DNA of 32,028 nt from Candidatus Acetothermia bacterium (GTDB lineage: Bacteria > Bipolaricaulota > Bipolaricaulia > Bipolaricaulales > Bipolaricaulaceae). Under the pieces are notes generated by a model, which saw nothing but the letters and a program-made list of their open reading frames with translations, ran no database searches and had not been told where the DNA came from. This document shows positions 25,598 to 29,151 of the stretch, piece by piece (position 1 is the first letter of the stretch; each line of letters starts with the position of its first letter). The translations under genes were made by a program, and so were the position numbers. Location: positions 1-32,028 of the forward strand of contig JANLFW010000018.1 of NCBI GenBank assembly GCA_024653305.1, given 5' to 3'.

Positions 25598-26148
25598 CCG
25601 TGGGGGCGTTGCGCACGGAGCTCCTGTTCGTCCCGGGGCCGCGGCGGGCCCTGGGGGTGGGCCAGGGGGCGGCGACGCGGTTGGCGCGGTGGCTGGCGGA
25701 CCGCCGGCCGGACGGGGTGTTGGTGGTGGGCTTTTGCGGGGGACTGCGGGGGCACCTCACGCCGGGCGCACTGGTCCTGGCGGACCGGGTGGTGGGCGAG
25801 GCCGCGGCGATCCCGGTGGGCGAGGAGTTGGTTGAGCGGGCCCGGGCGGCGGTCCCGGGGGCGGAGGTGGGGGCCCTGATCACGGCGGCGGGGCTCGTGG
25901 GGCCGCGGGAGAAGGCGATCCTCGGGATCGAGGCCCTGGGGGTGGACCTGGAATCGGCCCCCCTCGCTCGGGAGCTTTCGGGGTGGGGGATCCCGTTCCT
26001 CGTGGTCCGGGTCGTCCTGGACGCCCTGTGGGAGGAGCTCCCCCGGCGGGGGCAGGCCTTCCTCTGGGTCCGGCGGGCCCTGGCCTGTGCCCGCCGGCTC
26101 GGCGCGGCGGCACGGGCCCTGACGCCGGTTCTGGAGGGACGGGGATGA
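25588..26148 (+). CDS. hpnG: Adenosylhopane nucleosidase/phosphorylase HpnG
   Basis: This is a small member of the purine nucleoside phosphorylase/MTAN fold, 186 residues. Typical motifs are VGFCGGLRGHLTPGALV and the substrate-binding DLESAPLARELSGWG followed by PFLVVRVVLD. HpnG removes adenine from adenosylhopane on the way to ribosylhopane or bacteriohopanetetrol. The ATG at 25588 has GGAGG at 25578-25582 and overlaps the hpnH end by 10 bases; an ATG at 25564 would add eight residues. It is shorter than most HpnG proteins because the N-terminus starts right at the first strand. Its position after hpnH makes the call much safer than the sequence alone. Confidence 0.82.
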   Translation: MVVTVGALRTELLFVPGPRRALGVGQGAATRLARWLADRRPDGVLVVGFCGGLRGHLTPGALVLADRVVGEAAAIPVGEELVERARAAVPGAEVGALITAAGLVGPREKAILGIEALGVDLESAPLARELSGWGIPFLVVRVVLDALWEELPRRGQAFLWVRRALACARRLGAAARALTPVLEGRG

Positions 26149-27203
26149 CCAGGGCCGTGAAGGTGGGGAACGTGGTCCTCGGCGGGGGGAACCCGATCGT
26201 GGTCCAGTCCATGACCAACGCCCCCACCACCGACATCCCGGCCACCGTGGACCAGATCCGTCGGCTGGTTGCGGCCGGCTGCGAGGTGGTGCGGGTGGCC
26301 GTGCCGGGCCTGGACGCGGCCGCGGCCATCCGGGAGATCAAGCGCGAAGTGACCGTCCCCATCGTCGCCGACATCCACTACGACCACCGGTTGGCCCTGG
26401 CCGCGCTCGCGGCTGGGGCGGACAAGCTCCGCCTCAACCCCGGGAACATCCGCGACCCCGACAAGATCCGGGAGGTGGCCGTGGCTGCCGGGGAGAAGGG
26501 GGTGCCGATCCGGGTCGGGGTGAACGCCGGCTCGGTGGACGCCCGGTTCAAGGGGCGGGACGGGAAGGTCACGGCCGAGGGGTTGGTCGAGGCGGCGCTG
26601 TGGGAGGTGCGGCTGCTGGAGGACGTGGGGTTCCGGGACATCGTGATCTCGATCAAGGCCCACGACGTCCACCTCACCGTGGACGCAAACCGGCGCCTCG
26701 CCCGGGAGGTGGACTACCCCCTGCACCTCGGGATCACCGAGGCCGGAACCCCGTGGGAGGGGGCGATCCGGTCTGCGGTTGCTCTCGGGATCCTCCTTTC
26801 CGAGGGGATTGGGGACACGATCCGCGTTTCCCTTTCCGGCGACCCGGTGCGGGAGGTGGCGGCGGCGTGGGAGATCCTCTCGACGCTGGGGCTGCGGCGG
26901 CGCGGACCGAGCTATGTGGTGTGTCCAACCTGCGGCCGCACCGGGGTCGACATCGCCGGGATCGCCCAAGCCGTGCGGGCGCGCCTCGCTGGGGTGGTGC
27001 ATCCCCTGACCATCGCCATCATGGGCTGCCCGGTGAACGGGCTTGGCGAGGCGGAAAGGGCGGACTTCGCGATCCTCGGGGGCCAGGGCCACGGCACCGT
27101 GTACGCCCACGGAAAGGTCGTCCTCCCCAAGGTCCCCGAGGTCCGCTTGGTGGAGGAGCTGGTGACCCTGATCAGGCGGGAGGTGAAAGGCCATGAACCG
27201 TGA
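26145..27203 (+). CDS. ispG: 4-hydroxy-3-methylbut-2-enyl diphosphate synthase IspG
   Basis: This 352-residue iron-sulfur enzyme of the MEP pathway converts MEcPP to HMBPP. The N-terminal TIM-barrel half contains QSMTNAPTTD and VADIHYDHRLAL; the C-terminal half carries the cluster ligands C260 and C263 (CPTCGRTG), C295 and E302 (MGCPVNGLGEAE). This is the short form without the extra domain seen in chloroplast-type enzymes. The ATG overlaps the hpnG stop (ATGA), with GGAGG eight bases ahead. ispH, the next enzyme of the pathway, lies just beyond the cyclase gene. Confidence 0.95.
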   Translation: MTRAVKVGNVVLGGGNPIVVQSMTNAPTTDIPATVDQIRRLVAAGCEVVRVAVPGLDAAAAIREIKREVTVPIVADIHYDHRLALAALAAGADKLRLNPGNIRDPDKIREVAVAAGEKGVPIRVGVNAGSVDARFKGRDGKVTAEGLVEAALWEVRLLEDVGFRDIVISIKAHDVHLTVDANRRLAREVDYPLHLGITEAGTPWEGAIRSAVALGILLSEGIGDTIRVSLSGDPVREVAAAWEILSTLGLRRRGPSYVVCPTCGRTGVDIAGIAQAVRARLAGVVHPLTIAIMGCPVNGLGEAERADFAILGGQGHGTVYAHGKVVLPKVPEVRLVEELVTLIRREVKGHEP

Positions 27204-29151
27204 ACCGTCATCCGTGAACGGCAATTCGTTACGCGTGAACCGTGAAGAGATGCCCCCGCTTGCTGATCACGGATCACGGGTCACGGACCTCGATCGGGCC
27301 ATCGACCGGGCGGTGGGCTGGCTCCTCGCCCGCCAACACCCCGAGGGGTACTGGTGGGGAGAGCTCGAGTCCAATGTGACGATCACCGCCGAGCACCTGT
27401 TCCTGACCCACATCTTGGGGATCGGCAGCCAGGACCTGTGGGGCAAGATCGCCCGCTACATCCTGGGAGGGCAGCGCGCAGACGGCACCTGGGCCAACTG
27501 GTTCGGGGGGCCGGGGGACCTCTCCACCACGGTCGAGGCCTACGTGGCCCTGAAGATGGCCGGGGTGGACCCCGACGACCTGCGGATGCGCCGCGCCCGG
27601 GAGTGGATCCTCACCCAAGGCGGGGTGGAGCGGGCCCGGACCTTCACCAAGATCTGGCTTGCTCTGCTCGGGGAATGGCCGTGGGACGCGACCCCGATGC
27701 TCCCCCCGGAGCTGGTCCTGCTGCCGAGGTGGTTCCCGGTGAACCTGTACACGTTCGCGTCCTGGGCCCGAGGGACGATCCTGCCGCTTGCCATCGTGCG
27801 CACCCTGAAGCCGGTGTTCCCCGTGCCGGCCCACGCCCGGGTCGACGAGCTCTTCCCCCGGGGTCGGGCGCGGGCCGACTTTGCGCTTCCCCGGAAGTCG
27901 GGGGCATGGGCGGCCCTGTTCCGGGGCGTGGACCGCGGGCTGCGGGCCTACGAGGCCCTTCCGTGGAAGCCGCTCCGCCGAGAGGCGATGAAGCGGGCCG
28001 AGGCGTGGATCGTGTCCCGGCAAGAAGCCGACGGCTGCTGGGGCGGGATCCAGCCCCCGTGGGTGTACGCGTTGATCGCCCTCTATGCCCTGGGCTACAG
28101 CCGGGAGAGCCCGGTGATGCGGCGCGGCATCGACGGGTTCCGCCGCTGTGCCATCGAGGACGAGAGCGGGTTCCGGCTGCAGTCGTGCATCTCCCCGGTG
28201 TGGGATACCGGCCTCGCCATGCTCGCCCTCCAGGACGCCGGCCGGCCGGCCGATCACCCCGCGCTGGTGCGGGCCGGGGAGTGGCTCATCTCGGAGCAGA
28301 TCTTCGTGGGCGGCGACTGGCAGGTGCGGTGCCGGGCCCGCCCCGGTGGTTGGGCGTTCGAGTTCGACAACGACGTGTACCCGGACACCGACGACACGGC
28401 GGTGGTGTTGATGGCGATCCTGAGAACCGATCTTCCGGAGCGCGCCAAGGAGTTCGCCCTTTCGCGGGGCTTGGAGTGGCTCCTCGGGATGCAGTCCCGG
28501 AACGGCGGCTGGGGGGCATTCGACCGAAACAACACCAAGGCCTTTGTTCGCCAGATCCCGTTCGCCGACTTCGGCGAGCTGATCGACCCCCCGTCTGTGG
28601 ACGTCACCGCCCACATCGCGGAGCTCCTGGGGCGGATGGGGTACCGGCCGGGGTTCACCCCCCTGGACCGGGCGCTACGTTACATGTTCCGGGAGCAGGA
28701 GGCGGACGGCTCTTGGTACGGCCGGTGGGGGGTGAACCACATCTACGGCACGGGGGCGGTGCTGCCGGCGCTCGCGGCGTGCGGCTTCCCGATGGACGAT
28801 CCGCGGGTGCAAAAGGCGGCAGCCTGGCTCCTTGGCCGGCAGAACCCGGACGGCGGCTGGGGGGAGGCGGTGGAGTCCTACCATAGCGTGGAACTTCGCG
28901 GCCGTGGGCCCTCAACGGCTTCCCAGACGGCGTGGGCCCTGCTCGCGCTCCTCGCCGCTGGAGAGAGGGGGGAGGCCGTGCGCCGGGGCGTGGCCTTCCT
29001 CGTGGAGACCCAGGGGCCGGATGGCACGTGGGACGAGCCCTACTTTACCGGCACCGGTTTCCCCACCGACTTCATGATCCGCTACCACCTGTACCGGCAC
29101 TGCTTCCCGCTCATGGCGCTCGGGCGCTACCGGGGGGAGGTCGAGGCATGA
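27193..29151 (+). CDS. shc: Squalene-hopene cyclase
   Basis: This 652-residue membrane-associated triterpene cyclase turns squalene into hopene. The protonating DxDDTA motif is at 398-403 (DTDDTA), and QW repeats recur (QADGTW, QEADGCW, QSRNGGWGAF, QEADGSW, QNPDGGWGE, QGPDGTW). The Alicyclobacillus enzyme has 631 residues with its motif at 374, so the excess is about 24 residues at the N-terminus. Those residues are encoded by a heptad-repeat inverted repeat. GGAGGTGA at 27179-27186, a near-perfect ribosome site, supports the ATG at 27193 despite that; the in-frame ATG at 27250 has none. It overlaps ispG by 11 bases and ispH by 4. Confidence 0.92.
   Translation: MNREPSSVNGNSLRVNREEMPPLADHGSRVTDLDRAIDRAVGWLLARQHPEGYWWGELESNVTITAEHLFLTHILGIGSQDLWGKIARYILGGQRADGTWANWFGGPGDLSTTVEAYVALKMAGVDPDDLRMRRAREWILTQGGVERARTFTKIWLALLGEWPWDATPMLPPELVLLPRWFPVNLYTFASWARGTILPLAIVRTLKPVFPVPAHARVDELFPRGRARADFALPRKSGAWAALFRGVDRGLRAYEALPWKPLRREAMKRAEAWIVSRQEADGCWGGIQPPWVYALIALYALGYSRESPVMRRGIDGFRRCAIEDESGFRLQSCISPVWDTGLAMLALQDAGRPADHPALVRAGEWLISEQIFVGGDWQVRCRARPGGWAFEFDNDVYPDTDDTAVVLMAILRTDLPERAKEFALSRGLEWLLGMQSRNGGWGAFDRNNTKAFVRQIPFADFGELIDPPSVDVTAHIAELLGRMGYRPGFTPLDRALRYMFREQEADGSWYGRWGVNHIYGTGAVLPALAACGFPMDDPRVQKAAAWLLGRQNPDGGWGEAVESYHSVELRGRGPSTASQTAWALLALLAAGERGEAVRRGVAFLVETQGPDGTWDEPYFTGTGFPTDFMIRYHLYRHCFPLMALGRYRGEVEA
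27195..27286. repeat. Heptad-repeat inverted repeat inside the 5' end of shc
   Basis: From 27195 to 27250 the sequence runs in degenerate 7-base steps of the type GAACCGT (exact at 27195, 27202 and 27237). From 27266 to 27286 come three tandem 7-mers: ATCACGG, ATCACGG, GTCACGG. The arms 27198-27217 and 27267-27286 are complementary at 18 of 20 positions, with a 49-base loop. It looks like a REP/MITE-like intergenic repeat that became part of a coding start. The mRNA could fold next to the start codon. Confidence 0.7.

Follow-up and report, generated by a model that had tools for sequence, protein, structure and literature searches.

A dispersed inverted heptad repeat of Bipolaricaulaceae at the ispG-shc junction and its likely translation as an N-terminal tail

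Introduction

Rickettsia palindromic elements (RPEs) are dispersed palindromic repeats that lie in frame inside protein genes. Other dispersed repeats are built of tandem seven-base units. Direct repeats of the heptamer TAACTGA are known from marine Beggiatoaceae, Cyanobacteria, and Bacteroidetes (MacGregor 2015, PMC4679880); the parts of that paper drawn on here place the arrays mostly just 5' of start codons, where they appear to replace the Shine-Dalgarno sequence, give an overlap of at most 18 nt with the upstream open reading frame (ORF), and record the reverse orientation inside ORFs. The GGGAATC heptads of Xanthomonas and the GGGGAYT heptads of Nostoc lie mostly between genes of the same direction, near or overlapping stop codons, and form close-by convergent pairs in 70 and 75 cases (Rehm et al. 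2015, PMC4692102).

The window analysed here, a stretch of 32,028 nucleotides, is contig C18 of G000, a 1.59 Mb draft genome of a Candidatus Acetothermia bacterium. It carries an inverted heptad repeat where ispG ends and shc begins, a pair of isoprenoid/hopanoid genes that overlap, in the gene order ispG (PF04551), shc (PF13243/PF13249; TIGR01507), and ispH (PF02401). The repeat represents a heptad element that is dispersed in the Bipolaricaulaceae, a convergent element of which this copy has likely settled at the end of ispG, become enclosed in shc, and come to be translated as an N-terminal tail.

The inverted repeat at the ispG-shc junction

The features of the junction are as follows.

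26145-27203, + strand: ispG/gcpE (PF04551, E 1.4e-137); its last codons (..REVKGHEP) and TGA stop lie within the element
27179-27186, + strand: Shine-Dalgarno sequence of shc, GGAGGTGA, 6 nt ahead of ATG 27193
27193-27195, + strand: most likely shc start codon, in the heptad-phase unit ATGAACC; 11-nt overlap with the end of ispG
27193-29151, + strand: shc, squalene-hopene cyclase; residues 1-32 element-derived, cyclase homology from residue 34
27193-27248, + strand: left arm, eight GTRAYNN-type heptads in a single phase, with stops in the two non-shc frames
27207-27213, + strand: heptad GTCATCC; TRA position in the shc frame is TCA, no stop
27228-27234, + strand: heptad GTTACGC; TRA position in the shc frame is TTA, no stop
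27249-27265, + strand: spacer, which includes ATG 27250
27266-27286, - strand: right arm, made of three inverted heptads (ATCACGGATCACGGGTCACGG) that read open on the shc strand

The preliminary description of this locus had reported arms at 27198-27217 and 27267-27286 that pair at 18 of 20 positions and are built of 7-base repeats. This holds: the pair is the sole inverted repeat of its kind (20-nt arms, at least 18 matches, loop of at most 60 nt) in the 32 kb window, and 20 order-1 Markov shuffles of the window gave 0 such pairs. A repeat search widens the arms to 27198-27224 and 27260-27286 (27 nt, 85%). The heptad phase of the plus strand through 27193-27248 reads ATGAACC, GTGAACC, GTCATCC, GTGAACG, GCAATTC, GTTACGC, GTGAACC, and GTGAAGA, and the stop of ispG, TGA at 27201-27203, sits in the heptad GTGAACC at 27200-27206. 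Three perfect inverted units of the right arm, found as minus-strand pattern matches with 0 mismatches, occupy 27266-27284.

A dispersed family of heptad arrays

Other copies, which the preliminary description had proposed searching for, are present in the genome: CCGTGANCCGT matches G000 13+12 = 25 times, against 2+0 = 2 for the reversed pattern. The element consists of about four degenerate GTRAYNN heptads, a spacer, and about four inverted heptads (NNRTYAC). In 33 sampled stretches of three relatives, which cover the regions around pattern matches, 76 arrays were counted, against 1 in shuffled sequence. Neighbouring arrays in five sampled genomes of family f1 form 34 convergent pairs (+ then -) and 0 divergent ones; the modal arm in f1 genomes holds 4 units, and most spacers measure 6-33 nt. 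Three successive GTRAYNN units are enriched across f1 and in parts of the phylum's families f2 and f7, with the reversed-pattern control near zero in f1.

Within the unit, conservation reaches about 93-100% at the G, T, and A of GTRAY, and each genome has its own typical Y and NN (GTGATCC in G000, GTGACGC in G002 and G009, GTGATGA in G025). Such a conserved core beside a variable NN could be expected of sites for a DNA- or RNA-binding protein kept at gene boundaries by selection, as could the arrays of different unit type that one kind of junction carries across genera; yet array number differs widely between congeners (0 matches in G015, 8 in G005), relatives frequently have empty junctions, and the analysis yielded no candidate protein, so that binding sites are an unlikely explanation.

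Spacers were also considered as a conserved core of the element and rejected in this role, since they are unrelated except in one inverted pair of G000 copies and in a weaker match at null level, which joins two copies that both lie near tRNA genes: a copy on contig C13 shares spacer letters with an element of G016 (L181). That copy, at G000:C13:7727-7789 (L056), and another at C16:26987-27059 (L058) occupy gaps between adjacent tRNA-like genes.

Beyond f1, the same unit is found in G025 of family f2 (L296-L315), where neighbouring arrays are direct and form no convergent pairs; the convergent architecture is therefore claimed for f1 only. In 30 genomes with related cyclases, mainly Chloroflexi and Actinobacteria, GTRAYNN occurs at chance level. 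Patchy positives were obtained in a second phylum, sampled around a Desulfoferrobacter genome (L161), and thus the element is not confined to Bipolaricaulota; a restriction to that phylum, entertained as a candidate, is rejected. The arrays of a genome sampled there are mostly direct. Within this sample (G134, G150, G176, G212, and others; L335-L345), GTRAYNN is abundant in some genomes and absent from others, and several instead hold the reversed control pattern in large numbers, which implies further heptad families.

Stop codons and gene ends

Most of the 7-base units hold a stop codon, with TGA or TAA in the forward heptads, and reverse-oriented heptads read open in all frames. Since 7 equals 1 modulo 3, three successive forward heptads close all three frames, and a gene that enters a left arm consequently ends at +4, +11, or +18. 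Of 73 arrays with a nearby coding ORF end, 54 have that end inside the array and not before it, and 50 of these 54 ends fall exactly at +4 (23), +11 (11), or +18 (16). The position of the end, once inside the array, is arithmetic; the actual finding is that genes run into the arrays. A further 92 of 165 arrays had no nearby coding ORF end, about half of which number is expected because just one of the two arms faces the operon strand, and the home-made codon score missed some ends, chiefly in G025. Most copies are found where genes of an operon join, and there the left arm takes the place of the upstream gene's stop codon.

Single reverse-oriented arms also occur inside genes. In a DegT-family aminotransferase of G016 (contig C7, L189:2116-2141), reverse heptads lie in frame and encode LVTRYASRVT, and the stretch that holds them exceeds that of the closest solved homologue by 5 residues.

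The start of shc and its N-terminal tail

TIGR01507 matches shc from residue 34 (E 9.8e-253), and residues 34-651 align with 12-629 of the Alicyclobacillus enzyme (1gsz). The preliminary description had credited the repeat with most of some 24 residues by which this cyclase exceeds its relatives. Against 1gsz the excess is close to that, at 22 N-terminal residues (residue 34 aligns with residue 12), but close relatives bear extensions of their own, of differing length and built from the same kind of repeat. The view that the repeat was not selected as a peptide repeat is supported. Its capture in frame within shc likewise stands, whereas the label of an intergenic element calls for refinement, in that the repeat lies at the 3' end of ispG and provides the stop codon of that gene.

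Where shc begins bears directly on how much of the element is translated. Most family members have a GGAGGTG-type Shine-Dalgarno sequence ahead of the equivalent start. In the repeat-free relatives L014 and L019, the shc start overlaps the ispG stop in the same ATGNNTGA-type way, and the start codon of the window is therefore probably ancestral. Only because this start overlaps the ispG end does the element lie inside shc, where it would be translated. A start at ATG 27250, which the preliminary description had named, if demonstrated and joined to a lack of other copies, as evidence against its reading, would leave the left arm as a 5' leader with the right arm alone translated; it would give a 13-residue tail ahead of the LDRAI motif, resembling short relatives. 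It is very unlikely: its Shine-Dalgarno sequence is poor compared with GGAGGTGA before ATG 27193, an equivalent Shine-Dalgarno sequence and start precede the array in relatives, and five lineages keep the upstream frame open through stop-rich heptads, with the in-frame heptads altered.

In the shc genes of the five genomes G000, G013, G002, G009, and G003, heptads with their TRA position in the shc frame are all sense (TCA, TTA, CTA, TTA, TTG, TCG), and TGA or TAA is retained in most out-of-frame heptads. Taken together with four genomes of a second gene, similar to hdrA2, a stop is kept in 0 of 11 in-frame heptads against 21 of 29 out-of-frame ones, a count that is partly circular, as open genes were chosen, and whose rows are related. 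What the count does show is that stop-rich arrays have given rise to tails only in cases of altered in-frame heptad positions. Tails also change in length, as between L105 and L108/L110, whose shc arrays differ by 21 nt, equal to 3 heptads or 7 codons. From open frames and Shine-Dalgarno sites, we infer that the arrays are translated as an N-terminal tail of shc.

A second capture in an hdrA2-like gene

Another copy of the element stands at the start of the second gene.

G000:C11:29072-29192 (= L053:1403-1523): element copy at the N-terminus of an hdrA2-like gene (NF040770 is the best match, below cut-off)

The upstream gene ends within a heptad, in ..HEP and its stop, and the downstream start overlaps that end by 11 nt, as at ispG-shc. 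Four repeat-free orthologues from four genera (G003, G012, G004, G011) have 15-27 nt between the start codon and the protein body; the five heptad-bearing ones (G000, G001, G005, G015, G013) have tails of 78-135 nt, each length divisible by 3. The left arm was walked in G000, G001, G005, and G015, and its in-frame heptads are changed to TTA, TTG, TCT, or TCA. On its sequence, this locus reads as an independent second case of capture.

RNA structure over the shc start

The preliminary description had suggested that the hairpin could fold over the start region and tune translation. As an RNA regulatory structure, it might also couple shc to ispG. The isolated stretch 27193-27292 forms a predicted stem of -40.7 kcal/mol, many copies have convergent arms, and a role in translation has been proposed for heptad arrays elsewhere, in the parts of PMC4679880 drawn on here. 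In its natural context, however, the fold is no better than that of shuffles (z -0.47), and ATG 27193 is predicted to be about 87% unpaired. Complementarity of the arms within an element is 0.759, against 0.746 between elements of the same genome (permutation p 0.10); own arms fit no better than those of other elements, so precise RNA pairing is not the conserved feature. Moreover, shc orthologues without the repeat exist (L019, L022), and copies also lie between tRNA genes. With an ordinary fold in context and no co-variation of the arms, RNA hairpin regulation is rejected as highly improbable. An Rfam search of 26900-27500 gave no match up to E = 1.

Origin and spread

For capture by shc, the following course is proposed. 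The shc start codon would already have lain upstream of the ispG stop before the element arrived; on reaching the 3' end of ispG as a unit, the element would have fallen between the shc start codon and the protein body. Arrival as a unit is read from presence and absence between genera. The insertion may have been tolerated since those left-arm heptads that fall in the shc frame read as sense codons (TCA, TTA) and the right arm leaves the frame open; the translated arrays would form a dispensable N-terminal tail and would have survived through the loss of in-frame stops. Later gain or loss of heptads by slippage in the translated tails may have been kept only in frame-preserving steps.

Could slippage have made the arrays altogether, as local simple-sequence repeats and not as copies of a dispersed element? 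Unit number and type vary by genome, length changes of 3 heptads are observed, and work summarised in the parts of PMC4679880 drawn on here finds that, in many bacterial genomes, no long simple repeat is commoner than the heptamer. Against this, a single consensus (GTRAY) recurs across many loci and genera in strictly convergent pairs with a modal 4 units per arm, and slippage alone neither yields convergent arms nor spreads a consensus. Furthermore, two inverted copies of G000 (G000:C3:90414-90483 and 91541-91586; L002) share a 17-nt spacer match, scoring 17 against a null maximum of 14, which suggests duplication or movement of a whole element. Local slippage as the sole source is quite unlikely; it probably acts after an element has arrived. 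The two L002 copies, 1.1 kb apart with the same spacer, flank one gene.

Neither a target-site duplication nor a mobilising enzyme was found for the element. Y1_Tnp/RAYT (PF01797) was not detected in G000, G007, G008, G009, G013, or G019, drafts that may miss the gene, and all but G000 among them are relatives carrying many copies. RAYT is accordingly rejected as the mobiliser, and the term REP-like, used in the preliminary description, holds as an analogy and not in its strict sense. The element probably spreads as a selfish or neutral repeat and does not serve shc as an RNA switch.

The shc-ispH junction adds a further observation. In eight relatives (L010, L011, L012, L015, L017, L018, L021, L037) it holds arrays of differing unit type, and G000 has no heptad array at this C-terminal end of shc. 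L015 and L018 carry single arms there of different type and even of opposite orientation; arms that differ in this way require a contribution from gene conversion, re-insertion, or local rearrangement as well.

A wider picture is tentative and rather doubtful: the elements might be gene-boundary modules of the Bipolaricaulaceae that end incoming frames within 18 nt and leave outgoing ones open, that spread by some undescribed form of copying in which the GTRAY core persists as the unit type shifts from genome to genome, and that repeatedly make N-terminal tails at overlapping gene pairs.

The junction offers a concrete case of a non-coding dispersed repeat turning into protein sequence with the gene left intact. 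Its 7-base periodicity closes frames on one strand and leaves them open on the other, and the overlapping start and stop trap the element in the downstream gene. The natural series of empty, filled, and 21-nt expanded junctions lets the arrival of the element and its later change be traced. For annotation, it serves as a warning that some of the N-terminal protein sequence in these genomes stems from repeats.

Comparison with known repeats

As short dispersed palindromes between genes, the elements resemble REP/BIME sequences, which lack heptad arrays; here no RAYT was detected in six draft genomes. With RPEs they share an in-frame location in proteins, at the N-termini of shc and the hdrA2-like protein and in the interior of the DegT aminotransferase. 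RPEs are usually longer and not heptad-built, whereas capture here stems from overlapping genes and a left arm that supplies a stop.

The closest likeness is to intergenic heptamer arrays, a scattered and poorly explained kind of repeat to which one more phylum is now added: the units are tandem, seven bases long, and dispersed, and they are placed at gene boundaries, where they often overlap the upstream stop. Like the TAACTGA repeats, as the parts of PMC4679880 drawn on here present them, they consist of 7-base units that close three frames in the forward direction and are open in reverse, and they have a patchy phyletic spread and no known mobiliser. The TAACTGA unit, however, is nearly invariant and the Bipolaricaulota unit is a degenerate GTRAYNN; TAACTGA arrays are direct, with a single inverted case, while the Bipolaricaulota pairs are convergent. 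Translation of forward arrays through lost in-frame stops, proposed here, does not appear for TAACTGA in those same parts.

The heptads of Xanthomonas and Nostoc share the 7-base unit, the modal number of four, and the convergent pairs (PMC4692102). Their units are G-rich and quadruplex-forming (GGGANTN), and the Bipolaricaulota consensus has no fixed GGG tract; by our own reading, the GGGAATC unit has a stop codon on neither strand, whereas the Bipolaricaulota forward unit carries stops. The Bipolaricaulota element thus unites properties of the TAACTGA and GGGAATC types in a different, degenerate unit, and what it adds to both is repeated translated capture at overlapping gene pairs.
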